Source: Acholeplasmatales bacterium
GTDB taxonomy: Bacteria > Bacillota_I > Bacilli_A > Acholeplasmatales > Anaeroplasmataceae
Length of the DNA stretch: 64,000 nucleotides
Assembly (NCBI GenBank): GCA_017444645.1
Contig: JAFSWG010000037.1
Coordinates: 1 to 64,000 of the forward strand
Direction of reading: 5' to 3'
Shown here: piece after piece, positions 2,106 through 32,534 of the stretch
How the letters are laid out: the number at the start of each line of letters is the position of its first letter
How positions within the stretch are numbered: the stretch's first letter is position 1
Program-made: the position numbers and the translations under genes
The notes under the pieces: generated by a model
The model's database searches: none
The model's input: the letters and a program-made list of their open reading frames with translations, nothing else
What the model was told of the DNA's origin: nothing

Positions 2106-2119
2106 GAGATTAAATAACT

Positions 2120-4093: not shown

Positions 4094-5149
4094 ATGAAAG
4101 ACAATAAAAAGAAGAATAAAAAGAAATTTACAATTATTGAGCTTGTAATAATTGGAATTGTTATAACAGCTTGTATTGTTTTTATAGCTATAGAAATGGC
4201 AGCTCCTGGCTCTAGTGTAGGTTCTTGGGTTAAAGAAAATATTTTGGATACAGAAAAAGCTGGACAGGATTTTATGAATCATTTACCTGTTTTAATCCAA
4301 AGTATTATATACGTTGTAATTATTTATGCTGTATGTAAGCTAATTAGAATTATATTTGAATTTATAATGAAAAAATCTAATCGTGCTAGAACAGTAGTTA
4401 TATTACTTGATGGTTTAGTAAAATATGCATGTGCTATCGCAATTATTATTTTCGTATTACAAGCAGTAGGTGTTAACTCAACAGCTATTTTCGCATCAGT
4501 TGGTATTTTAACACTAGTAATTGGTTTAGGTTGCCAAAGCTTAATCGCAGACGTAGTGGCTGGAATGTTCATTATATTTGAAAATGAATATAATGTAGGT
4601 GAAATAATTACAATCGGAGATTTCCGTGGTACAGTAACTGAAATTGGTATTCGTGATACAACAATTATGGATGCCGCAGGTAATATTTCAAGTATAAATA
4701 ATTCTGAAATTTCTAGTGTTATTAATTTATCGAGAGAATTATCTTTGGCAGTAGTAGATTGTGAATTCCCATATGATGTACCTATTGAGGTAGTAGAAGG
4801 ATTATTAAAAGATAATTTTGATAATTTTAAGAAAAGAATTCCTGCAATAATTGAAGGACCTTTCTATAAAGGTGTATCAGGATACGGAGCTTCAAATGTA
4901 GCTGTAAAAGTAGTAGCTAAATGCCATGAAGAGGATAGATATCAGGTTCAAAGAGATTTACTTCGTGAATATAGAAAAGTATTTACAGAGGCAGGTATCG
5001 ATTTATCATTCAATCAAGTTGTTGTTCAAAATTATCAGCCTACAGAATATCATTTAACTAAGAAGATGAAACAAGAGGCTGAACAATTTATTGATGAACA
5101 AAAGGAATTATCAAAAGATGTTGATGGTGGAGCTGATAATAAGCAATAA
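4094..5149 (+). CDS. MscS-family mechanosensitive channel, copy 1
   Basis: A small-conductance mechanosensitive channel-like protein of 351 residues. A lysine-rich N-terminus precedes a hydrophobic segment at about 13-36, a second at about 68-90, and the pore region (about 110-165) with VGILTLVIGLGCQSLIADVVAGMF. The MscS beta domain follows (VGEIITIGDFRGTVTEIGIR), then an alpha/beta C-terminal domain and an acidic tail. It is about 88% identical, by my hand count of about 42 differences, to the gene at 18266-19321, and the pore and beta-domain stretch is identical in protein. A strong site (GGGGGGAGGGAG) precedes the ATG. Here the gene stands alone behind its own promoter, unlike copy 2. Confidence 0.92.
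   Translation: MKDNKKKNKKKFTIIELVIIGIVITACIVFIAIEMAAPGSSVGSWVKENILDTEKAGQDFMNHLPVLIQSIIYVVIIYAVCKLIRIIFEFIMKKSNRARTVVILLDGLVKYACAIAIIIFVLQAVGVNSTAIFASVGILTLVIGLGCQSLIADVVAGMFIIFENEYNVGEIITIGDFRGTVTEIGIRDTTIMDAAGNISSINNSEISSVINLSRELSLAVVDCEFPYDVPIEVVEGLLKDNFDNFKKRIPAIIEGPFYKGVSGYGASNVAVKVVAKCHEEDRYQVQRDLLREYRKVFTEAGIDLSFNQVVVQNYQPTEYHLTKKMKQEAEQFIDEQKELSKDVDGGADNKQ
4402..4655 (+). repeat. Conserved direct-repeat core, copy A (partner 18574-18827)
   Basis: This 254-nt segment of the first MscS gene matches 18574-18827 with only four differences, all synonymous, whereas the flanking parts of the two genes differ at many amino acids. The two cores lie exactly 14,172 nt apart in direct orientation. 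Confidence 0.85.
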
Positions 5150-5168
5150 AAACGGCTCTTTCCAAAAT

Positions 5169-5348
5169 TAGGTAGTTTTGTAGATAGCTACCTAGAAATT
5201 GAAAGAAATATAAAAATGGATGTTATACATACTTCCAAAGTGAGGTAGGTACCAGTTTAGTAGACAAAAAAATAAAAAATGGTACTAAGATAACTTTATA
5301 AGAAATAAAATATGGTTACTAACAGAAATAAGTTGGTAACCATTTTTA
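5169..5348 (+). other. Intergenic region with two hairpins; possible remnant of an insertion-sequence end
   Basis: The stretch after the first channel gene has an inverted repeat (TAGGTAG at 5169-5175 with CTACCTA at 5188-5194). It then has a 12-bp stem with one G-U pair (ATGGTTACTAAC at 5312-5323 with GTTGGTAACCAT at 5332-5343) followed by TTTTTAT, which looks like a terminator. The intervening AT-rich text around 5243-5285 (GGTACCAGTTTAGTAGACA) resembles the leader of an IS3-like element, but I see no transposase and cannot confirm this. Confidence 0.4.
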
Positions 5349-5368
5349 TATGAAAGGATCTTAGTATT

Positions 5369-6004
5369 ATGAGATATGTTAGATTAGAATTGTTATACAT
5401 AATAATAAACAAAAAAGGAAATAATTATTTAGATGATGTTTGGCTAGCCATATCAAATTCATTTCAAGAAAACATATCCGATACACTTGAGAAAATATCT
5501 AATATTTTTTCTAAAGTATCATCATTTGTAAAAAATATCACAGACACTTTATCGGATTCATTGCTTCCATTTATTGAGTCGATTAACAAAATAACTTCGT
5601 CTTTTAAAGGATTTGAATTAAATACTGCTAAGATAGATAGCTTATTAAAGAAGTGGGATAAATATGGGTGGTGTTTTACAAATTTTTCTTCTTTTTCTAA
5701 TGTAGATTATGAACTAAAGACAATTTAAGAAGCTGATGAGATACAAATTAATAAACATAAGGATGAAATTATTACATCAATGATTAATGAAATATCAACC
5801 TATACTGAATACAAGGATGATTTAGCTGAGGCGATTATTTGTTATAATGAAGGACATTATAAAGCATCATTAATGATTATTTTTTCAATCATTTCAAATA
5901 TTCTTTTATTGTTGAAGTTTCTACAATTAATCATACTATCAACATTAGTTAAAATAGCTTCTCTTAGGGGAATATTCTTCCTATTACAGTATTCGACAAA
6001 GTAA
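5369..6004 (+). pseudogene. Decayed gene with an in-frame TAA stop
   Basis: Two pieces in the same frame, 5369-5725 and 5729-6004, are separated only by a TAA at 5726-5728. Reading through the stop gives one continuous helical protein. The first part holds an amphipathic heptad-like stretch (SFVKNITDTLSDSLLPFIESI), then LLKKWDKYGW. The second holds EAIICYNEGHYKASLMIIFSII, a pattern I associate with hypothetical proteins of mobile regions in Firmicutes. The end loses similarity in a hydrophobic run, suggesting a further frameshift or truncation. A good AAAGGA site precedes 5369. The function is unknown; it is probably cargo of a lost mobile element. Confidence 0.55.
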
Positions 6005-6006
6005 CC

Positions 6007-6222
6007 TCAGTTATCTTTGAAAACATCTTGAATGGTAATATGATTATTTTCTTTTCTAGCGCAAGTGAGATTATTAAGTTTATTATATTCATTTTCGTAA
6101 ACATCATGTCCAGCTTTAGCAGCATCTAAAAGAAGATGAGAAAGGTATCCTCTTTTAGCGTGAGCATAATAAGGGTTAGATTTAATTTCTAAAGGTAAAT
6201 AATCAGTTACGATAGAAGCCAT
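6007..6222 (-). CDS. Small orphan protein of 71 residues
   Basis: A short minus-strand gene. I start it at the ATG at 6220-6222, because GGTGAT sits at a proper distance upstream; the longer frame to 6264 has no ribosome site. The protein is soluble and His/Tyr-rich (NPYYAHAKRGYLSHLLLDAAKAGHDVY) with no recognised domain, and could be the remaining end of a larger protein. It converges on the decayed gene and lies between it and the LRR lipoprotein, inside the segment bracketed by the two channel genes. It may be a remnant. Confidence 0.4.
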   Translation of the reverse strand: MASIVTDYLPLEIKSNPYYAHAKRGYLSHLLLDAAKAGHDVYENEYNKLNNLTCARKENNHITIQDVFKDN

Positions 6223-6392
6223 AAAATCACCACTATCTATAATACAGGAAAAAAGCCAAAACAAAAAGATTTAAAATCTTTTGGAATTCTATTTTTTATG
6301 TAAAATAATACAAAATTTAATATATGTGTTTTAAAAACATGCTATAATGATATTAAACTCATTACAGTTACAAACAAGATAGGAGACACTTT

Positions 6393-9062
6393 ATGAAAAA
6401 AAGATTATTATCGATAGCAGCATTAGCAATCTCAAGCTTTATACCATTCATGCTTACTTCCTGTGGAACAAAAACAGAGACTTCATCGAATATACCTATA
6501 ACAAGTATTGTAGAAACCTCAGTTGAAATTACTGCCTCAAGCAATGTGTATTTTTTGGGAAATGATGCAAATAAAATAAAAATTTCCTACAGCATTTCAG
6601 AAAATTTAGCTAGCCTTAATAAAAATATTTCCTTTGATTTAATGGATAATATTTGTGATGGAAAGATTACACAAGAAGGAGATAGCTATTATTTTACTGC
6701 TAAAAATATAGGTAGCGTAAAAATCATAGCGAAATATGATAATTACAAATCAAACATAATAACTATCACATGTAAAAATGCGGATACAACGGTTGCAGAT
6801 TTAATGGATTCAACTCTAAATATAAGTGGTGGTGTTGTCTTTGGACAAGAATATGATTTAGGCATCGATCCATCTGAGGCTTCACATTATACCATTGATG
6901 GAGCAGATGGCATTTTAAAAATTAATGAGAATGGAAAGCTTGAGGTTTTAGGTTTAGGAAAAGGTAAAATCACACTTAAAAATCAAAATGCAGTCATTTA
7001 TGAAGGAAGATATACGGTATATAATTCCGTTCTTTCCACGATATTAAAAGAAGATTTAATTGCCAAAGGCATTATTGAAAATAAGGCTTCAAATGTTGAA
7101 AATGATATGCTTTCAAATATTAAAGAGCTTGATTTAAATGGAGAATTAATAAATGATCCAACTGCTAGTTTTGGTATAAAGTATTTAAATGCTCTTGAGT
7201 CCTTGGATTTATCTAATAATGATTTGACGGATGCCTCATTTTTAATTAATATATCCAATCTTAAGAGATTAAATTTAAAAAATAATTATTTTTCTGATAT
7301 TTCCTCTGTTGTTGAAAATGAGAATCTAGAATATTTGGATTTATCGAATAATAATTTATCTAATATTACAAAGCTTCAATTCTTATATGAGATAAAAGAC
7401 TTAGATTTATCTGGTAATCATATAACGGATGTAAGTTCATTAAGTACATCCTATTCCCTAGAGTCTTTAAATTTGAACAATAATAAAATTAGTAATTTTA
7501 AGGATTCATTATCTGGATTAGAATATTTAAAAGAATTATACGTAGGTAATTGCGATATTCCATTTACGGATATTATTTCTTTAAAATATTTAAAGAATAT
7601 TGAAGCATTAGATATTTCAGGTACGGATCCTACATTAGATAATCTGTTGATTTTAAATAAGCTTAATAAATTAATATTAAGCGATTGTAAATTATCTGAA
7701 AAGGATATTACAAAGCTTAATAATCTAACCAATTTAGAGTATTTAGATATATCTAATAACGACATTGATACAGTTTCTTACGGAAATGGATTAGATGCAT
7801 CTAAGCTCACTAAGATTCATACGCTAAAGATGGGAGGTAATGCATTTTTAGAGATGCCTTTACTATCTTCTTTTACGAATCTTAAGGCACTTGATTTATC
7901 CAATTCATATAATTTAATAGATGTATCTTCTATATCAAATTTAAAGATTGAAGAATTAGTATTGGATAATTCAAATTCTATTGATATATCTGAAAATAAG
8001 TTTGAAGATATGTTGGATTCTTTATCTGACTTAAAGAGATTATCTGTCGTTGGTGGATTTAATTTCTTGAACAAGGATTTATATAATAATTTAATTTCAA
8101 AAGTAGAAAATGGTACAATAAGTTTAAGATTCTTAGATGGCATTTATGTAGATAATAATACAGTTTATAATTATAAGAAAAATGTAATCTTTGGTATGGA
8201 TGAGTTTTTAAGCATTTGTACACTAGAAGAAGATGGTTCTTATACAATTAATGATTTAGCCGATAGAAGACAAATTGTATTAGCTCTTGCAAATGATCAA
8301 GCATCTACTGCAACAGCCACATATAAATTCAATGTAAGCAAATCCTTATTTAGATTAGATGTATTCGGAAACACGTATAAAACATATGATATTCGATTCA
8401 AAGTTGAAGATAGAAAGGAATCATCTTTTACGTTTGGATTCTATGATTTTAATGATGCAATATCTAAAAAAGAGCCACTTATTCAAGCCGCAAGTGGTAG
8501 TAAAATTATTTTGACAGGTGATGGTAAATCCACCTTAAAGTCTAAGGTAAAGGATAAATCACCAAAAGCCTTAATAGATTGTTATGATATTTATATTAAA
8601 TATTCCAACGTAACAAATTCAAGTCTAAACATTATAGGTGGTGAAGCCTCAAAGGGCGAAAATGGCCATGATGCAGATACTGGTGATAGAGAGTATAAAA
8701 ATGGCAAGAAGGGATATAATGCTACTTATACTATTGTTTGTAATTATATATCCATAAACAAATGTAACGTTAAAGTTGTAGGCGGTACTGGTGGTGAAGG
8801 TGGAAACGGAGGAAAATCAACCTCAGGCTTCCTTACAATGATAGATAATTATAAAAAAGGTGGAAACGGCGGTAATGGTGGTACCGGTGGTACTGCAGTT
8901 TACTGCAAAGATTACTTTATTTATGATTTAACTACACTAGAAGCCGGAAAGGGTGGAAAGCCTGGTTCTGTAGGTAAAGGATTCAATGACGATACATATT
9001 GGTATGGTGATAAAGGCAAAAATGGTTCTGATGGAAAGACCATAGTTGTAGAAGAGAAGTAA
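6393..9062 (+). CDS. Leucine-rich-repeat lipoprotein with glycine-rich C-terminus
   Basis: A predicted surface lipoprotein of 889 residues. The signal peptide ends in the lipobox LTSC with acylated Cys24. Residues about 40-210 form beta-rich, Ig-like material (Big-type). Residues about 243-555 are internalin-type leucine-rich repeats of about 22 residues, with repeated LDLSNN and LKRLNLKNN patterns. The segment from about 560 to 740 is beta-rich without a recognised family. The last about 140 residues are strikingly Gly/Asn/Lys-rich (GGTGGEGGNGG, KKGGNGGNGG, GKGGKPGS). A TATAAT with extended TG at 6342-6350 and an AGGAG site precede it, and a terminator follows. The role is probably adhesion or protein binding; the partner is unknown. 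Confidence 0.88.
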   Translation: MKKRLLSIAALAISSFIPFMLTSCGTKTETSSNIPITSIVETSVEITASSNVYFLGNDANKIKISYSISENLASLNKNISFDLMDNICDGKITQEGDSYYFTAKNIGSVKIIAKYDNYKSNIITITCKNADTTVADLMDSTLNISGGVVFGQEYDLGIDPSEASHYTIDGADGILKINENGKLEVLGLGKGKITLKNQNAVIYEGRYTVYNSVLSTILKEDLIAKGIIENKASNVENDMLSNIKELDLNGELINDPTASFGIKYLNALESLDLSNNDLTDASFLINISNLKRLNLKNNYFSDISSVVENENLEYLDLSNNNLSNITKLQFLYEIKDLDLSGNHITDVSSLSTSYSLESLNLNNNKISNFKDSLSGLEYLKELYVGNCDIPFTDIISLKYLKNIEALDISGTDPTLDNLLILNKLNKLILSDCKLSEKDITKLNNLTNLEYLDISNNDIDTVSYGNGLDASKLTKIHTLKMGGNAFLEMPLLSSFTNLKALDLSNSYNLIDVSSISNLKIEELVLDNSNSIDISENKFEDMLDSLSDLKRLSVVGGFNFLNKDLYNNLISKVENGTISLRFLDGIYVDNNTVYNYKKNVIFGMDEFLSICTLEEDGSYTINDLADRRQIVLALANDQASTATATYKFNVSKSLFRLDVFGNTYKTYDIRFKVEDRKESSFTFGFYDFNDAISKKEPLIQAASGSKIILTGDGKSTLKSKVKDKSPKALIDCYDIYIKYSNVTNSSLNIIGGEASKGENGHDADTGDREYKNGKKGYNATYTIVCNYISINKCNVKVVGGTGGEGGNGGKSTSGFLTMIDNYKKGGNGGNGGTGGTAVYCKDYFIYDLTTLEAGKGGKPGSVGKGFNDDTYWYGDKGKNGSDGKTIVVEEK

Positions 9063-9147: not shown

Positions 9148-9176
9148 TTGCAAATAAATAAATAATATGTTATAAT
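9148..9176 (+). promoter_or_regulatory. Promoter of the giant surface-protein gene
   Basis: TTGCAA at 9148-9153, a 17-nt spacer and TATAAT at 9171-9176, with TG one base upstream of the -10. It closely resembles the promoter of the first channel gene at 4018-4046. The transcript would carry a leader of about 45 nt with AAGGGAG before the ATG at 9230. Confidence 0.75.
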
Positions 9177-9229: not shown

Positions 9230-12200
9230 ATGTCGAGACTGAAAAGATTTAGAGACGAATTTCAATACCAGGGTAGTGAATACAATCGTCCTATTTTAGA
9301 AGCTAAGCCAATTGCTGCTATAAAACCTATTTTTAATCCTAAAGAATCAAAAAACTCTCCTTTTGAAACAAAAAGTACTAGGGTACCAGAGTACTATAAT
9401 GATAATTTAGGTATGACCATTGAAGAAGAACAAAACAACAGAAGTAATTCTTACAATGATAATCAAAATAAATATAATGAAAATGGAAATAAAGATTTAA
9501 CAAATAATGCCGATACAGGTTCAGATATATCTAATGACAGTTCATTTGGATCTGAGGGAAATGTAACAGATGGTTTAGGCGGTACTGAAGCTGGTGGAGA
9601 GGCAGCAATAGAAGCTGCAACATCTACTGCAGTATCATCTTCAGCCACAGTAGTTTCAACTGCGTCATTAACTGGTGGTGTAACAATTATTTCAGCATGC
9701 GCTGTTGTTGCGGTAACCGTTGGTGGAAATATTATGAATACTCCACCTAAATTTGAAAATTTAATGTATGAACCAGGTACAGATTATTTAATTTATGAAT
9801 ATGATATAGATGATTTCCAAGAAGGACAAACTTATAAATTAAAAGTAACTTATGGAAATAGAGTAATTTTTGAAAAAGAAATTGAAGAACCAGGTCATCA
9901 TAAAGAATTATTAACAGGATTAATTCCAAATAGAACATATGATTTCCAAATCTTAGGTACTAATGGTGAATTTGGAGATATTGAATATTATACATTCCAA
10001 TGTTGTACAACTAAATTAGATGAACCAGAAGCTGTATTCATTTTCGATTCTAAAATTGACTATGAAGAAGGAATATTTGATATAGTATATGATATCTATA
10101 TCTCTGATTATTTCCATACAGGTAGTGATACATATCTAGAATTATATACAGGTGAAAATCTAATCAGAACTGAAAAAGTATTAGATAATGAAGGCTTCTT
10201 TAGAGGTGCCTTAACTAATTTACCTGATGGATATGAAGTTGGTGCGATTGTCTATACTACATATTATGACAAGGTTATTGAAATCGGTAGATTTGGTTAT
10301 GTTGCTAAATATCCAGATGATTTCAATGGTAACGAAAATAAACAAATTGCCACATTTGATTTTACAGAAGAATCATTTGCGAATACATTTAATAAAGAAA
10401 CAGGTATGCAAGAATTAGTAATTAGTACTAATTTTGATAATACCCTAGATACAAGAGAATCATATAGAATTGATTTATACGATATGGAAGAGAATTTAAT
10501 AGACTCTAAAATATCTTCTGAAAAGGAAGTATCTTTTAGTGTGCCTGCATATTATAAAAAGGTTAAGGCTGTCTTAACACCAATAAAAGAAGTAGGACCT
10601 AAAAATACTAATGTTCAATCTAAACAAGGTATAACAAAAGAATTTGAACCAATAATAATTGAATATGAATTTAACCCACCTCTATTTAGTGATGAAAAGA
10701 TAGAGTTCTTTAATAATGGTTATAATTTTAGTTTATTTGCAAATAGTGAAATACTTACAGATGCAATATTAAGTGTAGGATTTATTCAAAATAATGCAGA
10801 TGGAACTAAAAATGAAAAATATTTTGAATTAGAAAATGCAGAATTCAGTCAAAATGTTTTAACATCAATTGATGGTTCTATTCTAATAAAAGATGTATCT
10901 AGTATAGATGTTGAAATATATTTAGGCGAATATGTTATAGGTAAATATACATATACTATACCTGAGAATGCGCCTACAGAAGAATTAAATAATGATTTCT
11001 TATCTACTTATTCATTAACAAATAAGAGTATCACACAAGAATATAATAATGGTAATTATGAATTAACTATTGATACTAAATTTAAACAAGAAGTAGCAAA
11101 TGAATCATATAAATTAGAAATATATAATAATGATGAATTACTTGATTCTATAGAAAATACTACAGATGCCGTTAATACATTTACTATTCCTGCATATTAT
11201 AAAAATATTAAGGTTGTATTAACACCATTAAAAGAAATGGTTACAGGAACAGTAGAATTTGATACAACAGAAGTAGAATATACATTTGAACCTGAACTAA
11301 TTATTGATGAAAAGATTAGTTATTTTAATAATGGTTATATTGTTAGTTTAAAACCTAATTCATTAGTATTTAATGAAGATGATGTATTCACATTAGAAAT
11401 AACTGAAAATTATAAAGATGAAACTATTGAATCAAGAAAATTAACATCTGAATTCAGTGGTGAATTAAATAAAGATATCATAACATCAACAGATAGTTCT
11501 ATACTATTAAGTGATATAAAAGATATTGATGTAGTAATAAAATTAGGTGATGTAGTAATTGGTAAATATAATTATGATTTATCTAATGTTGTAACTACAG
11601 AAAATATGCCATATTTATCTACATATACTTTTAATGAAGATAGTATTAGTACAGTATTTGATAAAGAAACAGGTATTAATACAATAATTGTTAACACAGG
11701 ATTTACTCAAAAGAGCGAATATGAAAAATATAGAATTGATATTTTAGTTGATGATGAAATAATTGAATCATCTGATGCAATTACTTCATCAAGTATTGAT
11801 ATAGAATTAGAGGCATACCATAATAATATAACAATTAATTTTGTTAGAATTAAAGTCAATAATGAATTAGAAGCTATTTCATTAGATTATATAACAGAAC
11901 CAGCTTTATTTAGTAATGGAATTGAATACTACAATAATGGTTATATATTAGATATTGCTGCAAATGAAGATGTATTTGAGGAAGCTGATTCATTACATGT
12001 AATTGTTTATCAAAATAATAACGATGGTTCAACAACTGAATTTAGTTATGATTTTAATTTATCTTTAAATGAAGAAATATTAACATCAGAAGATGAATCT
12101 ATATTACTTAAAGATGTATCAAGTATTGAAGTAATTATTACATCAAATGATATTACATATGGTAGATTTGTTTATGAAATACCAGAAGATATTCCTTCTG

Positions 12201-15200
12201 CGAAATTATCAGATAAATTCATGTCTACATATACATTTAATGAGGATTCAATTACTGCTGTATTTGATAAAGAAAATTTAGAATATAATGTTACAGTTCT
12301 AACTGATTTTGATAATACAGATCATGAAAATGAAAAATATAAGATTGAAATAATTGATAATAGTGGTGTTTTAGTAGATCCAATTGCTACTATTACATCA
12401 ACTAACGCTAGTGAAACATTGTCTATCCCTTCAATCTATAAAGATATAAAGGTTAGATTTGTACCTTTAAAAGATATGGCTGATAGTACAACTATAGATT
12501 TTAGTGCCAAAGAAGTAGAAAGCATTTCTACACCAGCATTATTTAATGATTTAAGTGATGCTATATCTTATTATAAAGATGGATATATCTTTGATTTGAC
12601 AGCAAATAATACCTTATTTAATAATGGTGATACTTTTAGTGTACAAATTATTGAAACATATAGTGATGATACAACTAATGAAACAAATACATTTGAATTT
12701 AGTGAATCAATCACTAAAGAAATAATGACATCTTTAGATGGATCTATATTGTTAGAAAACATTAAGAGTATTCAAATAATTATTACATTATATGATGTAG
12801 TATTAGAATCATACACATATGATACAACTGAAGTTACTACTACAGAAAACTTATCATATAAGTCTACATATACATTTAATGAAGATAGTATTAGTTCAGC
12901 ATTTGATAAAGAAACAGGTATTAATACAATAACTGTTAATACAGGCTTTGATCAAGCTAATGAATATGAAAAATATAGAATAGATATTTTATATAATGAT
13001 GAAATTATTAAATCATCTGATGTAACTACAAATTCAAGCGTTAGCTTAGAAATAGAATCTTATTACGATAATATAGTAATTAAATTCACTGAAATAAAAG
13101 GTGAAAATGAATTAGATTCAACACCTGTTGAATATGAGACACCTGTATTATTTACAGGTAAGAATATAGATTATTATAATGATGGTTATGAAATTAATAT
13201 TACAGCTAATAAAGAATATTTTACTACAGATGATAGCTTTACAATTAAAATAAAAGAAATATATAAAGAATCTGATATAGCAAGAGAGCCTAGAGAATTA
13301 GATAAAGATTTCATTTATTCATTAGATAAAGTAGTAATGACTGATGGTTTATTATCTGAATTATCAATCTTAGAAATAACTATTTTATATAATGAAATAG
13401 AAATTTATAAAACAATTGAAGATTTATCTAAAGCAACTCCTGAAAAAAATATGCCATTTTTATCAGAATATTCATTTGAATTAACTGATATATCTAATGA
13501 ATATGATCTAGAAAATGGTAAGAATACAATAACTATTAATACAGGATTTGTACAAAAGAGTGATTTAGAATCATATAAGATTGTATTATATGATGGAGAA
13601 AATATAATAACTGAAGCAGAGGCAACAACTGATTCAACAGTCACTTTAGAATTATATTTATATCTTAAGAATTTCACTGTTAAATTGATTAGAATAAAAG
13701 ATGATTATGAATATGATCCTATTGAATTAGAGTATGAATCTATACCTATTTTATTCAATACAACAGTAGATTGGTATACTAATGGTTATGTATTAAATAT
13801 TATTCCAAATGAAGAAATTTTTAATGAAGATTCCGGTCTTACATTACATATTATTGAAGTGTATGCTGATCAAGAGCTTGATCAAGGTGGAGAGGTCGTA
13901 GGTGAATACCATCAACAATACATGCTAACAGGTGATGGATCTACGCCTATTACTGATTTAGTGAGATTAGAAGTATCAATTAATAGTGCTGATGATGTTT
14001 GTTTAGAATCATATGATTTTGTATATGATGGAGAAAACAATGGAGATTTACCTTATAAATCAACATTTACATTATCAGAAGATAATATTACAAAAACATA
14101 TAATAAAGCTGATGATACAGTAACACTTACAATTGATACAGGCTTTGTACAAAAATCTGATTTAGATCATTTTAGAATTGATATTTTAGATGGTGATGAT
14201 GTAATTGGTACAGCTGACAATTTGGTTAATAATGAAATTTCAACATCAGTAAGTATTAGTATTCCTGCTAGTACTAAAAATGTAACAATTAAATTAACTC
14301 CAATAAAGAGTTTATTAGAATTTACTGATTTAGTTGAAACAATAGAAGAATATGATGCAAGTGTTACATTATTTACTAACCCTGAAGGTGTTAGATATTA
14401 TGAATCAGGATTCTCATTTGAAATCCATGCAGATACAAAAATATTTAATCCAGAAGAGGATGCCTTAACAGCAACTGTTACAGTACGTTTTAATGATGAA
14501 TCATATAGAACTATTGATGATTTATCATTTGAAGATTTATTGTTAAGTACTGAAATTGATATTTCTGAATATGATAAAACAATTTCAGATTTAGCAAGCT
14601 TTGATATTGATATATCATTAAACGGTAGTATTATCCATACATTCTACTTTACTTATGAATCATTACCTATTACGATAGATCAAACAAGTATAGCAGTAGA
14701 TGATGATGGTAATATTTCATTTGATTATTCAGTTACTCTACCTGATGGTGCAACATTAAACTCAATATCAGGTATGTTTATAGGTGCAAATGATCAAATT
14801 GAATTAGATGCATTATCTGGTTCAATAACATTAACTGAATTAACAGCTAGTACTTTAACTCCTAGCTTATATATCAATTACACAACTAAAGATGGTGAAA
14901 CTGTTGAAATGCCTCTATCTTATGTTGGTGAATTAGATTTAGGTCTTGAAATAACTACATCATCTTATATCACGTATACTAATAGTGAATTAAATGTTAA
15001 TATTAAATTTGATGTAGAAAAAGATGGAACGTTGGTTAATGCAAATCTTGAATTACAATATAAAGAATCTGGTTTTGTTGAAAATCCAGATACTGGTGAA
15101 TCTGAAGAATCTATTGATTATAGAGATCCTGAGGTAATTAATACATATGAAGGTAAATATTTCCAATTTAAACCAATTACAGAAGAAGGAACTAATGGAA

Positions 15201-18200
15201 AAATATATTTAACTTATAAAATAACTTCAAATGGATTTGACAATGAAGAAAAAACAATTAATATCACTAAATCAATAATTCAAGAATATGCTTCATCAGG
15301 TACAGAGCTGTTCAATTATGAATCTAGTGTTCAAGGTTATAGTGATTCAAAATATATTAATTATATTAAAACAACAAATACTGATGGTACAGTAAATTAT
15401 TATTTTGATACTGGATTTAGCGATAATTCATCTAACCATAATGAAAGAATTATGTATACTTATACAGTAGATTCTAAGACAGTATATAAATATACAGAAT
15501 TCTTTACTGATAGCTACTTTGCATTAGAAAATGTAGAAGACTTAAATTACGACTTTAAGCTTATGATTTTCTATAATTATACTGATGGCTTATCATATTG
15601 TAGTGAAAGTGCGTATGGTGAAGCTTTAGATTCAGATAATGTAATTGATATATCTAATTCTACAATTAGTGAAGATGAAATAGATTTAGAACCTTATACT
15701 ATAGTTGATTTTAGTTTAGAAACTACATCTGTAGATTTATCAGAACCTATTAGTATTGCATATAAAGGTAATAATTATAGTATTAGTATTCCATTAAATG
15801 GTGATGGTAATATTGATATATCTGATAATGGTTATTCAGGTACTGATAATGATTTACAATATAATGTGACATTAGATGGAAGTACTTTAACATTTAATTT
15901 AAGATTTAAAGGCTCTCCTACAATTCCATTAAATGATAATTTACCTACTGTTTCATTCAACTATGTACCTTATATAATTGCTAAGATTGGTCAAGCAAAT
16001 ATTAAAAATTATGAATCATTATCTGAAACTGTTGAAACAGAAATAGCTAAATATATGGCTACATATAATCTAGATTCATTTAATATAGAAGATTTAGAAA
16101 AATATGAAAATAGTGATGGCTATAATAAAGTATATTTCCAAATCCCAGAATTTGATTCTAGTGATAAAAGGGATACATATTTGATATTAGCATATTATAA
16201 TGATGAAGTAATTGCTGAAAGCTATTATAGCTATAATTATAATATGGCAGAAGTTAACACACCGATAGTGTATGATAATGTATCATATAAGGTTGTATTT
16301 GTTAAAAATATAGATGATGATTATTGGAATCCTAAATATCAAGCATATATAGATGAAATAGATTTAGGAACATTGACATTTACTAGTGTTGATGCATTAG
16401 AAAATGTTAATGTAACATTAGATGGAAATAGCTATAGTATTTCAGCAAATTTAGTTAGTGGCTATACATCTAATTCCGATAACACATTTGTAGCTAAGGT
16501 AATTGAATATTATGATGATGGTACAAATTCAGAAGAAATAACATTAGATGATGGTATTGGTGTAGATGCTCCGATATTGTTATCTAATGAAGCAAATTTA
16601 AAAATCTCAAGTGTTAAATTATCAATTTACATGAGTAATAGTAATGATAAATTAGTATATGAAAAAACATTTGTAAATCCTGATATAACATTAGATGATT
16701 ATACATATAATGATGGTGATGATTATATTAGCTTACCATATAGTATTGATTTACCTACAGGTGCAACAATAACTGAAGGTTCTATTCAATATAATGGAAT
16801 ATCTACTGAAATTGGTGAAGCTTCAGGAAATTATATAATTAGTGAATTACAAAATAGTAGTATTTATTTAACATTTAATATTCAATATGAGGTTGATGGT
16901 ATAACATATTCTGTATCTAAAAATATAGAAAAGCAATTAGAATCTGTATTAGATTTTGATTATGAAATAAAAGCATATACAGGTTCAGATTATTATTATA
17001 GTTTTGAACGTGAATTAGCTGATAGCAATCATCCGTTCTATTATGATGATAAAACAAATTTAGTATGCTATTATGATTCAGCCCAAGATGCTTATATCAG
17101 CAATCAAACGGGTGAAGTTACTGGATACTATTTTGAAAATAATACGTTCTATGATGCAGATGGTAATGAACTTCAAGGATCATGGAATACAGTTTATAAT
17201 ACTTATTTATATGTGGTTGAAGGAAGCTTGTATGAAAATATTGGCTGTTTCAAGCTTCTTTATACTGATTCAAGCTGTGAAATAAATGTAACTAAAGCTG
17301 GAGGCAGTATATTTAATCCTTCAACAGGAGCTGAAAGTGATACATCGAGTCAAGGTGATCCATACTCATTAAATACATATACAATTTCTTCACCACCACA
17401 AACATTAAAGCTTACAATGCTTCATGAAGAAGTTGGATATTACTTAGATTATCCATTTATATATTCAGTAAATAACTGTGAGCATGAATTTGAAGTAACT
17501 TATAATGGTGAAACATTGATAACTAGAACAATTTCATATAGTGAACCACTAAAGAAAGCAGATATTAATAATTTTATTGATGATTCAGCGTTTACAACGA
17601 GTGACTCAAATGATTCAGTCACATTAAATGATGATGGAACAATTAATTTAACTATTAATACTGGTTTTGATAATACAGTAGATTCTAATTATGTATATAA
17701 ATTGATTTTATATGAAGATACAGATTTTAGCCATGAATATCATTCAAATGAATATGATATTGTAGCTTATGAGTCAGATTACTTAACAGAATCAACTGTT
17801 CAAGTAAGTAACGTTACAAGAACAAATTTAGTTGCGGTAGTGAAGTTATATTATCATGATAGTAGTTCGGGTGAATATGCTGAATGTGATATTACAAAGG
17901 AACTTGGATTTGTAAATTCACCTATGTATTCTGATTATGATGGATATTCATCTAGTGATCAAAAGTATTATAATAAATTGTATATAAATACAGATTTTAT
18001 TAATCCTGATTATTTAGATGGTACAATGGATCTTCAAGTTACATTACATGGAACTAATTATGAAATAGATTTATCTAATATAGAAGAACAAACTTTATCA
18101 AGTTCTACATCAGCAGTAGTATCTACTGATGTAGACGGTTTAATAACAGTAACTATTAAAGCATCTTCTGGTTCAAGCTATGTTAGAGGATCTGCTACTA

Positions 18201-18253
18201 TAAGTTATGGTAATTCAACAATTGGTTATACTGACATTACATATACAATCTAG
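9230..18253 (+). CDS. Giant membrane-anchored repeat protein (3007 residues)
   Basis: A huge, acidic, beta-rich protein. It has no N-terminal signal peptide. About 125 residues of basic then Asn/Ser/Gly-rich sequence precede one Ala/Ser/Thr/Val hydrophobic segment (about 128-168), so it probably inserts N-in with about 2,840 residues outside. An FN3-like domain follows (about 172-262, with LIPNRTYDFQI). Seven tandem units of about 200 residues begin near residues 374, 592, 797, 999, 1212, 1412 and 1611, each opening with a variant of STYTFNEDSI...NTGF. Two related LPxGAT domains lie near residues 1812 and 2486. There is no LPXTG or other sorting signal at the C-terminus. The AGGAGG site of the downstream channel gene overlaps its stop. 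I recognise no named family. Confidence 0.85.
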   Translation: MSRLKRFRDEFQYQGSEYNRPILEAKPIAAIKPIFNPKESKNSPFETKSTRVPEYYNDNLGMTIEEEQNNRSNSYNDNQNKYNENGNKDLTNNADTGSDISNDSSFGSEGNVTDGLGGTEAGGEAAIEAATSTAVSSSATVVSTASLTGGVTIISACAVVAVTVGGNIMNTPPKFENLMYEPGTDYLIYEYDIDDFQEGQTYKLKVTYGNRVIFEKEIEEPGHHKELLTGLIPNRTYDFQILGTNGEFGDIEYYTFQCCTTKLDEPEAVFIFDSKIDYEEGIFDIVYDIYISDYFHTGSDTYLELYTGENLIRTEKVLDNEGFFRGALTNLPDGYEVGAIVYTTYYDKVIEIGRFGYVAKYPDDFNGNENKQIATFDFTEESFANTFNKETGMQELVISTNFDNTLDTRESYRIDLYDMEENLIDSKISSEKEVSFSVPAYYKKVKAVLTPIKEVGPKNTNVQSKQGITKEFEPIIIEYEFNPPLFSDEKIEFFNNGYNFSLFANSEILTDAILSVGFIQNNADGTKNEKYFELENAEFSQNVLTSIDGSILIKDVSSIDVEIYLGEYVIGKYTYTIPENAPTEELNNDFLSTYSLTNKSITQEYNNGNYELTIDTKFKQEVANESYKLEIYNNDELLDSIENTTDAVNTFTIPAYYKNIKVVLTPLKEMVTGTVEFDTTEVEYTFEPELIIDEKISYFNNGYIVSLKPNSLVFNEDDVFTLEITENYKDETIESRKLTSEFSGELNKDIITSTDSSILLSDIKDIDVVIKLGDVVIGKYNYDLSNVVTTENMPYLSTYTFNEDSISTVFDKETGINTIIVNTGFTQKSEYEKYRIDILVDDEIIESSDAITSSSIDIELEAYHNNITINFVRIKVNNELEAISLDYITEPALFSNGIEYYNNGYILDIAANEDVFEEADSLHVIVYQNNNDGSTTEFSYDFNLSLNEEILTSEDESILLKDVSSIEVIITSNDITYGRFVYEIPEDIPSAKLSDKFMSTYTFNEDSITAVFDKENLEYNVTVLTDFDNTDHENEKYKIEIIDNSGVLVDPIATITSTNASETLSIPSIYKDIKVRFVPLKDMADSTTIDFSAKEVESISTPALFNDLSDAISYYKDGYIFDLTANNTLFNNGDTFSVQIIETYSDDTTNETNTFEFSESITKEIMTSLDGSILLENIKSIQIIITLYDVVLESYTYDTTEVTTTENLSYKSTYTFNEDSISSAFDKETGINTITVNTGFDQANEYEKYRIDILYNDEIIKSSDVTTNSSVSLEIESYYDNIVIKFTEIKGENELDSTPVEYETPVLFTGKNIDYYNDGYEINITANKEYFTTDDSFTIKIKEIYKESDIAREPRELDKDFIYSLDKVVMTDGLLSELSILEITILYNEIEIYKTIEDLSKATPEKNMPFLSEYSFELTDISNEYDLENGKNTITINTGFVQKSDLESYKIVLYDGENIITEAEATTDSTVTLELYLYLKNFTVKLIRIKDDYEYDPIELEYESIPILFNTTVDWYTNGYVLNIIPNEEIFNEDSGLTLHIIEVYADQELDQGGEVVGEYHQQYMLTGDGSTPITDLVRLEVSINSADDVCLESYDFVYDGENNGDLPYKSTFTLSEDNITKTYNKADDTVTLTIDTGFVQKSDLDHFRIDILDGDDVIGTADNLVNNEISTSVSISIPASTKNVTIKLTPIKSLLEFTDLVETIEEYDASVTLFTNPEGVRYYESGFSFEIHADTKIFNPEEDALTATVTVRFNDESYRTIDDLSFEDLLLSTEIDISEYDKTISDLASFDIDISLNGSIIHTFYFTYESLPITIDQTSIAVDDDGNISFDYSVTLPDGATLNSISGMFIGANDQIELDALSGSITLTELTASTLTPSLYINYTTKDGETVEMPLSYVGELDLGLEITTSSYITYTNSELNVNIKFDVEKDGTLVNANLELQYKESGFVENPDTGESEESIDYRDPEVINTYEGKYFQFKPITEEGTNGKIYLTYKITSNGFDNEEKTINITKSIIQEYASSGTELFNYESSVQGYSDSKYINYIKTTNTDGTVNYYFDTGFSDNSSNHNERIMYTYTVDSKTVYKYTEFFTDSYFALENVEDLNYDFKLMIFYNYTDGLSYCSESAYGEALDSDNVIDISNSTISEDEIDLEPYTIVDFSLETTSVDLSEPISIAYKGNNYSISIPLNGDGNIDISDNGYSGTDNDLQYNVTLDGSTLTFNLRFKGSPTIPLNDNLPTVSFNYVPYIIAKIGQANIKNYESLSETVETEIAKYMATYNLDSFNIEDLEKYENSDGYNKVYFQIPEFDSSDKRDTYLILAYYNDEVIAESYYSYNYNMAEVNTPIVYDNVSYKVVFVKNIDDDYWNPKYQAYIDEIDLGTLTFTSVDALENVNVTLDGNSYSISANLVSGYTSNSDNTFVAKVIEYYDDGTNSEEITLDDGIGVDAPILLSNEANLKISSVKLSIYMSNSNDKLVYEKTFVNPDITLDDYTYNDGDDYISLPYSIDLPTGATITEGSIQYNGISTEIGEASGNYIISELQNSSIYLTFNIQYEVDGITYSVSKNIEKQLESVLDFDYEIKAYTGSDYYYSFERELADSNHPFYYDDKTNLVCYYDSAQDAYISNQTGEVTGYYFENNTFYDADGNELQGSWNTVYNTYLYVVEGSLYENIGCFKLLYTDSSCEINVTKAGGSIFNPSTGAESDTSSQGDPYSLNTYTISSPPQTLKLTMLHEEVGYYLDYPFIYSVNNCEHEFEVTYNGETLITRTISYSEPLKKADINNFIDDSAFTTSDSNDSVTLNDDGTINLTINTGFDNTVDSNYVYKLILYEDTDFSHEYHSNEYDIVAYESDYLTESTVQVSNVTRTNLVAVVKLYYHDSSSGEYAECDITKELGFVNSPMYSDYDGYSSSDQKYYNKLYINTDFINPDYLDGTMDLQVTLHGTNYEIDLSNIEEQTLSSSTSAVVSTDVDGLITVTIKASSGSSYVRGSATISYGNSTIGYTDITYTI
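10349..14660 (+). repeat. Seven tandem units of about 600 nt inside the giant gene
   Basis: Unit starts, judged from the recurring STYTFNEDSI-like opening, are at about 10349, 11003, 11618, 12224, 12863, 13463 and 14060. Spacings are 654, 615, 606, 639, 600 and 597 nt. Units 3 and 5 are very similar at nucleotide level (for example a shared GATAAAGAAACAGGTATTAA), more so than either is to unit 4, suggesting a recent duplication. Confidence 0.75.
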
Positions 18254-18265
18254 GAGGAGAGGAAA

Positions 18266-19321
18266 ATGGAAGATAACAAAAAGAAAAACAAAAAGAAATT
18301 TACAATTGCGGAGTTGATAGTAATTGGAATTGTTATAACAACATTTTTGGTGTTTATGATAATTGAAATGGCCGCACCAACATCAGCTGTTGGTTCATGG
18401 GTAAAGGATAATGTTTGGGATACAGAAAAAGCTGGAAAGGATTTTATGAGCCATTTACCTGTTCTAATCCAAAGCATTATATATGTAGTAATTATTTATG
18501 CAGTATGTAAGCTAATTAGAATTATCTTCAGAGCGAAGATGGAAAAATCCGATCGTGCTAAAACAGTAATTACATTACTTGATGGTTTAGTAAAATATGC
18601 ATGTGCTATCGCAATCATTATTTTCGTATTACAAGCAGTAGGTGTTAACTCAACAGCTATTTTCGCATCAGTTGGTATTTTAACACTAGTAATTGGTTTA
18701 GGATGCCAAAGCTTAATCGCAGACGTAGTAGCTGGAATGTTCATTATATTTGAAAATGAATATAATGTAGGTGAAATAATTACAATCGGAGATTTCCGTG
18801 GTACAGTAACAGAAATTGGTATTCGTGCAACTAAAATCTTAGACGCAGCTGGTAATATCAAAATCATTAATAACTCAGATATTTCAAATGTAATCAATAT
18901 GTCTAGAGAATTATCTCTAGCAATTGTAGATTGTGAATTCCCATACGATGTACCTATTGAGGTAGTAGAAGGGTTATTAAAAGACAATTTTGATAACTTT
19001 AGAGAAAGAATTCCTGCAATAATTGAAGGACCTTTCTATAAAGGTGTATCAGGCTATGGTGATTCAAACGTAGCTGTAAAAGTAGTAGCTAAATGTAAAG
19101 AAGAAGATAGATATCAAGTACAAAGAGATTTACTTCGTGAATATAGAAAAGTATTTACAGAGGCAGGTATCGATTTATCATTCAACCAAGTTGTTGTTCA
19201 AAATTATCAGCCTACAAATTATCATGTAACTAAGAAAATGAAACAAGAGGCTGAACAATTTGTTGATGAACAAAAAGAATTATCAAAAGATGTAGATGGT
19301 GGAGCTGACCATAAAGAATAA
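18266..19321 (+). CDS. MscS-family mechanosensitive channel, copy 2
   Basis: The paralogue of the gene at 4094-5149, with the same 351-residue length, same domain order and no gaps in alignment. Differences cluster in the first transmembrane segment, the linker after segment 2 (residues about 90-102), a short loop at about 188-210 and the tail. The pore and beta domain (about residues 103-187) are identical. It starts 12 nt after the giant gene's stop, and its AGGAGG ribosome site at 18252-18257 overlaps that stop, so the two are co-transcribed and probably translationally coupled. That coupling suggests the channel and the giant surface protein work together, which is inference. Confidence 0.92.
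   Translation: MEDNKKKNKKKFTIAELIVIGIVITTFLVFMIIEMAAPTSAVGSWVKDNVWDTEKAGKDFMSHLPVLIQSIIYVVIIYAVCKLIRIIFRAKMEKSDRAKTVITLLDGLVKYACAIAIIIFVLQAVGVNSTAIFASVGILTLVIGLGCQSLIADVVAGMFIIFENEYNVGEIITIGDFRGTVTEIGIRATKILDAAGNIKIINNSDISNVINMSRELSLAIVDCEFPYDVPIEVVEGLLKDNFDNFRERIPAIIEGPFYKGVSGYGDSNVAVKVVAKCKEEDRYQVQRDLLREYRKVFTEAGIDLSFNQVVVQNYQPTNYHVTKKMKQEAEQFVDEQKELSKDVDGGADHKE
18574..18827 (+). repeat. Conserved direct-repeat core, copy B (partner 4402-4655)
   Basis: This 254-nt core of the second channel gene differs from 4402-4655 at four synonymous positions only, despite strong divergence on both sides. This fits gene conversion or strong purifying selection. Confidence 0.85.
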
Positions 19322-19330
19322 GCAATAAAA

Positions 19331-19357
19331 AAACTCGGGCAACCGAGTTTTTATTTT
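19331..19357. terminator. Bidirectional terminator between channel 2 and the diguanylate cyclase gene
   Basis: AAACTCGG (19331-19338), a GCAA tetraloop and CCGAGTTT (19343-19350), flanked by A on the left and T on the right, so it can serve both convergent genes. Confidence 0.9.
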
Positions 19358-20397
19358 TCTATAAGGTCAATTGTTATTGTTTTAGCTAAATAAAGAAGAA
19401 TAGCTATTTCATTACTTTGCCAAATTCTTGATGTTCTTTCTAAGGCATACATTATATATCCATAATTATTATTTGTAGTTCTTAATTTAGTAATTAATAC
19501 AGAAGATGTATTATATTTTCTAGTAGCTTCATATAGATTTGAATCTATAGCCTTTAGATCATTACTATGATTAGTTTTAATTATTTCATTATTAAATTTA
19601 GCTTTAGATAAATCTATTCCATCTCCGAATTTAGATAAATCATCTAAATTAAATATTTCTCCATTTGCATTTATATAGAATAAATAATCTAATCTTAATG
19701 TTTTCTTTATATATTCAGAAGCTTCATTACATTTAGATTTAAAATCTATATTATTCATAAATGCTGAATGTATATTTAATAAGATAGTTGCTTCATCATC
19801 ATTAACTAATTTTTTAATTTGTAAATCTTTATGTTTTTCATGTACATAAATGATATAACAATTTCTACCTTTTAATTTACCTCTATATAATGTTTTATCT
19901 GCCATTTCAAATAAATCTTCATAAGTAGAAGCATTAGTAGGGAAAACTGCACTACCAATAGTACCAGTGATATAAGTAGATTCGTCACCTATAGTAATAT
20001 TTTTTCTTAATACTGTATTATTATGATTCATATCATCATAAAAATCATGGATTTGGTTATATTCATTATGTTTGAATATAACAATAATGAATTCATCTCC
20101 ACCAAATCTTCCAGCAACGCCTGTATCACCTAAAAATGATATTAAATCATTTCCAATTGTTTCTAATACCACATCACCAGCAGTATGACCATAATTATCA
20201 TTGATATTTTTAAAATTATCTAAATCTAACATAGCCATTGTGAATGGAACATTATTATTAATTAATTCTTTAATAAATTCAACCATATATTTTCTATTAA
20301 CTAATCCAGTTAATGGATCAAGCATATATTCAATTTTAATAAATTTAGAAAGAGATTTAAAATATTTATATTTTGATAATGTTTCTTCGGTATACAT
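19351..20397 (-). CDS. Diguanylate cyclase (GGDEF) with C-terminal GAF-like domain
   Basis: A predicted cytoplasmic diguanylate cyclase that makes c-di-GMP from two GTP. The GGDEF domain spans about residues 25-180, with DPLTGLVNR, MLDLDNFKNIND and an intact GGDEF at 99-103. The inhibitory RxxD site expected five residues before GGDEF is absent (GDTG there). Residues about 200-348 form a GAF-like domain ending in WQSNEIAILLYLAKTI; its position after GGDEF is unusual. I chose the ATG at 20397 over the one at 20415, because AAAGGA lies at the right distance only for the inner start. It follows msrA closely, with the ribosome site inside the end of msrA. It is paralogous to the gene at 24113-25168. 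Confidence 0.88.
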   Translation of the reverse strand: MYTEETLSKYKYFKSLSKFIKIEYMLDPLTGLVNRKYMVEFIKELINNNVPFTMAMLDLDNFKNINDNYGHTAGDVVLETIGNDLISFLGDTGVAGRFGGDEFIIVIFKHNEYNQIHDFYDDMNHNNTVLRKNITIGDESTYITGTIGSAVFPTNASTYEDLFEMADKTLYRGKLKGRNCYIIYVHEKHKDLQIKKLVNDDEATILLNIHSAFMNNIDFKSKCNEASEYIKKTLRLDYLFYINANGEIFNLDDLSKFGDGIDLSKAKFNNEIIKTNHSNDLKAIDSNLYEATRKYNTSSVLITKLRTTNNNYGYIMYALERTSRIWQSNEIAILLYLAKTITIDLIEK

Positions 20398-20401
20398 ATT
20401 T

Positions 20402-20890
20402 TTATTTCCTTTCATCTTTCTTAATTAATTTTAAATTAACATGACAATACCCAGTTGGATTTTTAATTAAATAATCCTGATGAAATTTCTCAGCTAAATA
20501 GAAATTATCTAAAGGTAATACTTCAATTTTATAATTTGGTTTTAAATTATTTTTAAAGTAATTAATTATAATATTATAATCTAAATTATCGATGTAATAG
20601 ACACCGCTTCTATATTGATGACCAACGTCTTCACCTTGCTTATCAACAGAATAAGGGTCAACAAATCTTAGGAAATGTTCTAATAATTTTTCTAAAGATA
20701 TTAAATTGTCATCATAATCAATTTTAACTGTTTCCGAATGTGTAGCAATTCCATGCTTTAAATCCTCATATTTTGGATTTTTAATATTTCCGTTAGCATA
20801 GCCAACCTTAGTGCCAATTACACCCTTTAGTGATTGAAAATATGCCTCTACACCCCAGAAACAGCCACCAGCGATATATATTGTTTTCAT
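20402..20890 (-). CDS. msrA: Peptide methionine-(S)-S-oxide reductase MsrA
   Basis: MsrA reduces the S epimer of methionine sulfoxide in proteins or as the free amino acid. The active-site motif GGCFWGVEAYF lies at the N-terminus, followed by GTKVGYANG and the conserved DVGHQYRSGVYY segment. At 162 residues it is a single-domain MsrA without MsrB. The ATG at 20890 is chosen because GAGG precedes it; the longer reading begins with a GTG inside that ribosome site. A minus-strand -10 (TATACT, extended TG) lies at 20910-20915. The downstream diguanylate cyclase is in the same transcript. Confidence 0.95.
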   Translation of the reverse strand: MKTIYIAGGCFWGVEAYFQSLKGVIGTKVGYANGNIKNPKYEDLKHGIATHSETVKIDYDDNLISLEKLLEHFLRFVDPYSVDKQGEDVGHQYRSGVYYIDNLDYNIIINYFKNNLKPNYKIEVLPLDNFYLAEKFHQDYLIKNPTGYCHVNLKLIKKDERK

Positions 20891-24112: not shown

Positions 24113-25168
24113 ATGGGAGTATTTGATATTGAGTATTTTAATAAGAATAAGGAAAATGTTAATTTTGATTCTTTAACAAAAGTACTAAGTAGAAGTTCTT
24201 TTTATCAATATATGCAGTATTTAATTGATTCTAATAGAACATTTTCTTATTTCTTTTTTGATTTCGATGATTTCAAATCAATTAATGATGTTTTAGGTCA
24301 CCATTCAGGTGATGAAGCATTAGTAATTGCCGCTACTAGAATTGATGAAATTGTATGTAAATATAATGGTGTGACTGGAAGATTTGGTGGAGATGAATTT
24401 TTTGCAATATTTGAAAATTTAACAGAATATGACGATGTATGGAAAATTGCAAAAGAGATAAATGAAAAGGTTAGAGAAGAAAATTCAATTTCTAATATCC
24501 AATTAGCATTACCAGCAGGTATGCTAACAATTACAATAGGTATTGCAAGATTTCCAAAAGATGGTAAAACAATGGATGAATTGTTTGAAGTTACCGATAA
24601 GGCATTGTATAGAGGAAAACAAAAGGGTAAGAATTGTTTTATTATCTACAATCATGAGCTTCATAAAGATATTTTTAAGGATAAAGAAGTAAGAAAGCTT
24701 GATGTGAAAAATCTTATTGATTATGTATTTGTTTCAATGACTGATAAAGATTATTCATTGAATGAAAACCTTAAGCATGTTGGTACATTTATTGCGAATT
24801 ATTTTGGTGTAAGTATTTTTTCTAAAAATTATAATAAAAAATTTGAAATCATTTATTCAAATTGGAAAATGAAAGATCCTTCTTATGTAGACGAAAAATT
24901 ATTTTTAGATTTAAAAGCATCTGATGATTCAATGATTTTTATGTATGTTAATAATTTAAATGAAGATAATGAATTAAAAAAAGCACTTGAGAAACAAAAT
25001 GTGCACGCATCAATTCTAATTTCGTGTCAAACAAAGACAAAATTATATGGCTATTTAAGAGTAGATTCTAAATATGAAAGAATTTGGACTAAGGCTGAAA
25101 AAATAGTATTCCAAATAATTGCTAATTTATATGCTTTATTATTAGAATTTAAAAATGAAGAATTTTAA
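24113..25168 (+). CDS. Diguanylate cyclase (GGDEF) with C-terminal GAF-like domain, second copy
   Basis: A paralogue of the gene at 19351-20397 with the same architecture. GGDEF occupies about residues 18-175 with FDFDDFKSIND and an intact GGDEF at 92-96. The position of the inhibitory RxxD site holds KYNG, so product inhibition at the I-site is not expected. Residues about 195-348 are a GAF-like sensory domain ending in WTKAEKIVFQIIANLYALLLEF. Cytoplasmic, no membrane segment. A strong AAGGAGGG site precedes the ATG, 9 nt after the deformylase stop, so it is in the plsX operon. Confidence 0.88.
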   Translation: MGVFDIEYFNKNKENVNFDSLTKVLSRSSFYQYMQYLIDSNRTFSYFFFDFDDFKSINDVLGHHSGDEALVIAATRIDEIVCKYNGVTGRFGGDEFFAIFENLTEYDDVWKIAKEINEKVREENSISNIQLALPAGMLTITIGIARFPKDGKTMDELFEVTDKALYRGKQKGKNCFIIYNHELHKDIFKDKEVRKLDVKNLIDYVFVSMTDKDYSLNENLKHVGTFIANYFGVSIFSKNYNKKFEIIYSNWKMKDPSYVDEKLFLDLKASDDSMIFMYVNNLNEDNELKKALEKQNVHASILISCQTKTKLYGYLRVDSKYERIWTKAEKIVFQIIANLYALLLEFKNEEF

Positions 25169-28013: not shown

Positions 28014-29072
<1,059 letters not shown>

Positions 29073-29101
29073 TCTTTAAAAATAATTTTGAATTTAGACT
29101 A

Positions 29102-29133: not shown

Positions 29134-29158
29134 TCATATATATTAGGGGGTGTTTTTC

Positions 29159-30727: not shown

Positions 30728-30729
30728 TC

Positions 30730-32007: not shown

Positions 32008-32008
32008 A

Positions 32009-32533: not shown

Positions 32534-32534
32534 A

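Follow-up and report, generated by a model that had tools for sequence, protein, structure and literature searches.

We analysed a 64,000-nucleotide stretch of DNA from an Acholeplasmatales bacterium (positions 1 to 64,000 of contig JAFSWG010000037.1, assembly GCA_017444645.1; hereafter, the window), focusing on a giant gene at positions 9230-18253 of the forward strand and on the channel gene mscS2 that follows it on the same strand (18266-19321). The giant open reading frame (ORF) runs from ATG to stop with 0 internal stops and encodes 3007 amino acids (aa), arranged as an N-terminal tail (N-tail), a transmembrane (TM) segment, a fibronectin type III (FN3) module, seven repeat units, and a C-terminal part. 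The mscS2 gene starts 12 nt after the giant's stop codon. Its 351-aa product matches the MscS beta domain PF00924 (58.5 bits against a gathering score of 20.2, E 7.3e-16), as well as NCBIfam MscS models; on these matches it is an MscS-family channel, for which tension gating is predicted.

A promoter-like sequence (TTGCAA-17-TATAAT, with a TG before the -10 element) lies at 9148-9176 of the forward strand, about 50 nt before the giant's start; it scored 10/12 in the consensus scan, and its function is predicted. After mscS2, a bidirectional hairpin resembling an intrinsic terminator occupies 19329-19352 of the forward strand (2 such hairpins found vs 0.3 expected). Given the promoter-like site, the 12-nt gap, and the position of the hairpin, the giant gene and mscS2 look like one two-gene transcription unit.

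Architecture of the giant protein

In composition, the giant protein favours T, S, N, D, and E and contains little Cys and Arg. Its hydropathy profile has a single outstanding segment, at about aa 137-170 (9638-9739), which the family alignment also supports as the TM segment and which is rich in A, S, T, G, and V. Neither of the two features that mark a wall-anchored Gram-positive adhesin is visible: the N-terminus has no hydrophobic stretch that could form a signal peptide, and the C-terminal end (...GYTDITYTI) has no LPXTG-like or other sorting motif. On these points, and on the uninterrupted repeat protein with one internal hydrophobic segment, an FN3-like domain, and seven units, the original prediction, made by a model from the sequence alone, was correct. 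The scans of the giant against Pfam and NCBIfam, including the curated adhesin profiles, returned nothing over cut-off.

The segment preceding the membrane (aa 1-136, 9230-9637) is an acidic, low-complexity tail, placed in the cytoplasm by family alignment and by motif and charge counts. Relatives conserve the motif DEF..E[FY]K..AVEYY in this tail. Its first half, DEF..E[FY]K, occurs near the N-terminus in 21 of 28 giants, against 0.3 expected from shuffles, with the pattern derived from the same data. The region following the membrane (about aa 171-269, 9740-10036) was identified as FN3 through the profile A3, which covers the TM segment and the next ~100 aa and was built from 40 relatives, led by the window protein. 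Searched against the PDB, A3 hits fibronectin type III chains (1fnf, E 4.8e-10); the window giant alone falls below the Pfam fn3 threshold. The N-tail is acidic in the giants. Among 33 shorter relatives, the 30 residues flanking the TM segment contain on average 7.4 K+R before it and 2.3 after it, with the excess on the N-terminal side in 32/33. By the charge rule, this supports a type-II orientation of the TM+FN3 proteins, with the N-tail inside and the FN3 domain outside, as had been proposed for the giant.

The seven units span aa 371-1813, measure 199-220 aa each (about 205), and are 24-46% identical in pairwise comparisons. On the forward strand they are unit 1 (aa 371-590, 10340-10999), unit 2 (aa 591-795, 11000-11614), unit 3 (aa 796-997, 11615-12220), unit 4 (aa 998-1210, 12221-12859), unit 5 (aa 1211-1410, 12860-13459), unit 6 (aa 1411-1609, 13460-14056), and unit 7 (aa 1610-1813, 14057-14668). 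The unit profile scores 218-270 bits on all seven, which are its own training rows, and picks up an eighth, degenerate match of 13.9 bits at aa 2276-2480. The repeat is beyond chance, since the repeated DNA is in register across the units and single homologous units are present in other genomes.

The structure of unit 3, predicted with 14 aligned units, has high confidence (predicted local distance difference test, pLDDT, 95) and contains 14 strands in two sandwiches. The best Foldseek match was a tandem FN3 pair (probability 1.00, E 3.3e-5); global TM-scores were low, which we ascribe to differing angles between the two domains. According to this model, each ~200-residue unit is a pair of ~100-residue, seven-stranded FN3-like beta-sandwich domains. 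Thus the unit length given by the original prediction stands, and the unit itself is divided in two. Similarly, its statement that the unit belongs to no recognised family holds for the sequence, which had no match, adhesin families included, among Pfam, NCBIfam, and PDB profiles and so lacks an FN3 sequence-profile assignment; it does not hold for the predicted fold, which is of an ordinary type. A hit of the unit profile to the PDB sequence 6rfl_G (E 0.21) was discarded as due to chance. The hhalign comparison between the unit profile and the FN3 module gave no match, so that any homology between the two is putative.

With the unit profile, a single clear unit is recognised in most relatives (e.g., L027, a protein of 1115 aa) and several in L030; the seven units of the window are therefore best read as a tandem expansion of the family ectodomain. 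The C-terminal part (aa 1814-3007, 14669-18250) is collinear with that of relatives, at about 28-32% identity. Its distal 532 aa (16655-18250) are 33-38% identical to most relatives and represent a candidate functional tip. The model of this region is beta-rich and of moderate confidence (pLDDT 70; predicted TM-score, pTM, 0.39); its Foldseek matches were generic sandwich strings, such as complement C3/C5 and cytokine receptors, with no lectin or enzyme among them.

Pairing with one branch of MscS channels

The original prediction had suggested a survey of giant genes next to mscS as a check, without recognising what the adjacency could mean; in relatives this adjacency turned out to be near-universal. 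Among 60 related genomes searched, the giant was matched in 19, belonging to two genera of its own family, mostly at the N-terminal module (aa 1 to ~500) and at the C-terminal part (aa ~1790-3000). Wherever the contig includes the downstream side of a related giant, an mscS gene follows it, and a GT2 glycosyltransferase gene is usually found upstream. A search of genome contigs that started from an MscS alignment alone yielded 33 loci, several of which are the same contigs as the giant-derived ones, so that the two counts are not additive. A large ORF lies directly upstream of mscS in 32/32 informative loci, at a distance of -14 to +45 nt. These loci come from metagenome-assembled genomes labelled Acholeplasmatales, Bacillales, Bacilli, or Clostridia, many of them from rumen or faeces. 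The same kind of contig search with a single N-module protein as query gave no match, nor did a search of a plasmid collection with the N-module.

Most of the more distant MscS paralogs in the family (34-47% identity) likewise have an N-tail/TM/FN3 partner, the smallest of them (L051, 189 aa) consisting of the TM segment and one FN3 domain. The adjacency is kept even where gene order is reversed (L048, L049, and L050). The A3 profile has matches in 65 of the 150 genomes of the order; in families f2, f3, and f5 the better matches, where checked, proved to be proteins encoded immediately upstream of MscS, usually ~440 aa long, and in the genus of the window genome partners of 1000-3000 aa are the rule.

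To quantify the pairing in these 150 genomes, we counted an MscS match as paired when an A3 match lay within 10 kb, a definition by which the second window copy, mscS1, is paired. A partner accompanies 47 of the 59 MscS matches of at least 190 bits, and 1 of the 49 paralogs scoring 100-190 bits. The unpaired cases are largely explained by contig ends: these cut all four unpaired MscS of at least 500 bits, and all seven FN3 matches of at least 65 bits without MscS sit at them. Of the six unpaired MscS between 190 and 250 bits, three (L128, L130, and L132) have a partner found by a second profile, A5, two (L131 and L133) are at contig ends, and L129 is truly unpaired. In some families, A3 matches below ~35-46 bits (e.g., L118, L119, L122-L124, and L127) were rejected as pairs, being FN3 domains in other proteins.

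The A5 profile matched 42 of 296 genomes of the class, in several families. In 18 of the 20 A5 regions that were read, the partner lies beside or overlaps mscS, and the other two are cut by contig ends. A5 and A3 have no common rows, and hhalign aligns them over the TM segment and FN3 domain (probability 98.3%, E 1.6e-14); judged by this profile alignment, homology extends from the giant's N-module to the short partners found in other families of the class. In a sample of 295 genomes of the phylum, A5 matches were confined to the window's own class. Furthermore, the MscS tree, obtained with a quick method and with long branches flagged, groups the paired rows into a single clade, within which losses are few (Shimodaira-Hasegawa-like approximate likelihood ratio test, SH-aLRT, 99). 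The pairing of a TM/FN3 protein with one MscS branch across the class is thus well supported by comparative sequence evidence. The window giant has both features of the MscS-linked N-tail/TM/FN3 family defined here, namely mscS adjacency and a homologous N-module. The surface fibre of the original prediction is indeed membrane-anchored, and can be described more specifically as an expanded member of this class-wide family.

The mscS1 gene (4094-5149, forward strand) is 88% identical to mscS2 at the DNA level and is its sister on the MscS tree, where the end branch of mscS1 is roughly fourfold that of mscS2 (0.12 vs 0.029). It is altered at beta-domain positions conserved in the other copies (e.g., NIKIINNSDIS to NISSINNSEIS), which, together with the longer branch, suggests a relaxed or altered function.

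Some loci depart from the simple two-gene arrangement. At two distant pairs (L043, 1-8931, and L045, 621-6140), the small TM+FN3 gene and mscS are preceded by a gene for a further giant surface protein, of 2976 aa in L043 and 1839 aa in L045, that ends in hydrophobic segments of its own. At L080 (1137-9971), the giant upstream of mscS is apparently split into two frames (1603 + 1313 aa), either by assembly error or naturally.

Cell wall genes and the role of the pair

Neither MraY nor transpeptidase genes were found in the window's own genome, that of a gut-type bacterium (74% complete), or in most pair-bearing relatives, in agreement with the little or no cell wall originally proposed; other members of the same family carry both. 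Across the class, a peptidoglycan transpeptidase is present in 0/29 genomes with a strong partner match and in 133/267 of the others (Fisher p 9.5e-9, uncorrected for phylogeny). Within the window's own family the values are 3/23 with the pair and 7/13 for the others (Fisher p 0.018, uncorrected for relatedness). Loss of peptidoglycan genes has been published for related gut lineages (PMC7301438). Among the genomes of the family (G000-G035), there is one genus in which some carry MraY and transpeptidases and others, some more than 95% complete, carry neither; judging from gene content, wall loss within this genus seems recent or repeated.

Because the pairing of membrane-anchored FN3-type proteins with one MscS branch recurs across a mostly wall-less class, the giant probably acts as a committed partner of the channel and not as a stand-alone adhesin. 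In full, our reading is that one MscS branch has its own partners in a family of single-pass membrane proteins, which pass outside force or binding to the channel, and that the giant is an expanded form of these proteins. We give it a probability of roughly 45%, the transfer of force or binding being less certain than the partnership itself. Each partner would consist of a cytosolic tail, one TM helix, an outer membrane-proximal FN3 domain, and a variable string of FN3/Ig-like domains, which in the window giant would count ~2840 residues and reach perhaps the order of 100 nm if extended. Giant and channel would be made from one transcription unit, and the small-residue TM helix and the FN3 domain would dock on MscS within the membrane. 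The outer string could bind or become tangled with a food particle, mucin, a neighbouring cell, or the cell's own coat, and the resulting pull or binding may be passed to the channel, shifting its gating in cells that have no load-bearing wall. The strictest form, in which a single-pass FN3 string of up to 3007 residues is a dedicated MscS subunit in wall-less relatives of the Bacilli and force from an outside fibre opens the channel beyond membrane tension, is doubtful.

Several observations weigh against the channel-partner reading. Co-expression alone may be enough to keep gene order conserved. The giant changes quickly, with 30-40% identity to its relatives against 72-88% identity of their MscS to mscS2, and co-variation of the two is conjectural. 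In the window itself, mscS1 has no adjacent partner and the cytosolic tail motif is degraded. Moreover, three genomes of the window's own family (G007, G022, and G034) hold the pair together with transpeptidase, so wall loss is not required for the pair, and six genomes of that family have neither wall genes nor pair.

If co-expression were the whole explanation, the giant could be an ordinary adhesin or coat fibre, held by a TM segment because there is no wall, and mscS would be merely co-transcribed for envelope integrity, without contact. Adhesins often contain such strings of FN3/Ig-like domains, conservation of the distal 532 aa is good, and the upstream GT2 gene and the association with wall-gene absence would both suit such a role. 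This reading is weakened by the minimal partners: proteins of 189-306 aa with one or two FN3-like domains are hardly fibres, and they are still paired. It also leaves aside that pairing is confined to one MscS branch, the remaining MscS of these genomes having no partner, and that the adjacency outlasts reversal of gene order. We retain it as a rival and regard it as rather unlikely.

The same small FN3-TM partners resemble receptor-style subunits, and export-specialised MscS relatives exist, MscCG among them (PMC6110860). In Corynebacterium, MscCG exports glutamate. The FN3 ectodomain could accordingly bind an extracellular molecule and open MscS as a solute exporter. We consider this ligand sensor improbable, since neither a ligand-binding fold nor a conserved pocket was identified, no transport or metabolic gene is conserved beside the pair, and a string of 2840 residues is excessive for sensing a ligand. 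That short TM+FN3 forms suffice, that the two genes overlap or nearly overlap, as would favour co-translational assembly, and that unit number differs strongly among species would suit instead a factor for MscS assembly or stability, or a scaffold clustering channels, with a long ectodomain that is neutral or separately selected. Conservation of the distal C-terminal part across species (33-38%) speaks against neutral expansion, the prevalence of partners of 1000-3000 aa in the genus also weighs against this explanation, and to it too we assign a low probability.

If the channel-partner reading is true, a protein connects MscS with the cell's surroundings in some bacteria, in an arrangement conserved across a class, specific to one MscS branch, and linked to the absence of transpeptidase. 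Since near-complete genomes that lack wall genes include some with short versions of the pair, the pair offers a testable route into how wall-less cells handle mechanical and osmotic load. The giant, in turn, shows the extent to which an ectodomain can be stretched by tandem duplication.

Neighbouring genes and comparison with known systems

The GT2 gene that in relatives usually lies directly upstream of the giant is present in the window at 2120-3121 (forward strand, PF00535), separated from it by other genes. Just 5' of the giant, and outside the conserved pair, a gene at 6393-9062 (forward strand; PF12799 and others) encodes an 889-aa product that has a lipoprotein-like signal, contains leucine-rich repeats, and ends in a glycine-rich stretch. 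The ~1.2 kb between mscS1 and this gene (5150-6392) contain one short ORF and resemble decayed sequence or an insertion scar. In a probable rearrangement of the locus, mscS was duplicated and other genes, the leucine-rich-repeat lipoprotein gene among them, were inserted.

Genes for cyclic di-GMP-type signalling are frequent in the window, at 19351-20415, 24113-25168, 40698-42302, and 52364-55456. They encode two GGDEF proteins (the second recognised by sequence motif), one protein of GGDEF-EAL type, and one HD-domain protein in which propeller-type sensor repeats are present; GGDEF genes are also present near the giant/mscS pair in relatives. A branched-chain amino acid cluster at 28047-37020 (ketol-acid reductoisomerase, LeuA-like, aconitase family, IlvD, and a thiamine pyrophosphate enzyme) has a G+C content of ~35%, against ~26% in the rest of the window, and was possibly acquired. 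The gene at 38152-40596 apparently encodes a fusion of two enzymes: the N-terminal half of its 814-aa product matches GH28, and the C-terminal half matches profiles of six-hairpin (trehalase/MGH1-like) glycosidases.

Bacterial MscS is the textbook example of a channel gated by lipid force alone, and we know of no separate partner or auxiliary subunit of canonical MscS. The mscS2 product shares the beta domain (PF00924) with the canonical E. coli protein, and differs from it in its 351-aa length, four hydrophobic segments (by inspection), and lysine-rich N-terminus; it scores far under the NCBIfam MscS equivalog cut-offs (141 bits vs 500). A comparable system is MscCG of Corynebacterium glutamicum, an MscS-like channel whose gating is affected by an added TM segment and a C-terminal extension (PMC6110860). 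There, unlike in the pair, channel and extension form one fused protein, an FN3 domain is not described, and the organism is walled.

The giant resembles fibronectin type III proteins in its membrane-proximal domain, by profile, and in its units, by their predicted tandem FN3-like sandwiches. It is distinguished from them by a unit sequence outside the Pfam and PDB profiles, a bacterial origin, a type-II anchor, and an MscS neighbour. Long beta-sandwich strings are likewise shared with the giant Ig-like/FN3 adhesins of walled Gram-positives; these carry a signal peptide and a wall anchor such as LPXTG, whereas the window giant has neither and has a conserved channel neighbour. An analogy, and only that, can be drawn with the PCDH15/TMC1 tip link of hair cells, where a long extracellular domain string is linked to a channel (PMC10801851); that system is eukaryotic, with cadherin repeats and an unrelated channel, and force transfer in the giant/MscS pair is putative. 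Among openly licensed texts of the published literature, no MscS partner of the FN3-TM kind was found. The parts of the giant/MscS pair are of known kinds, and what would be new is their partnership.

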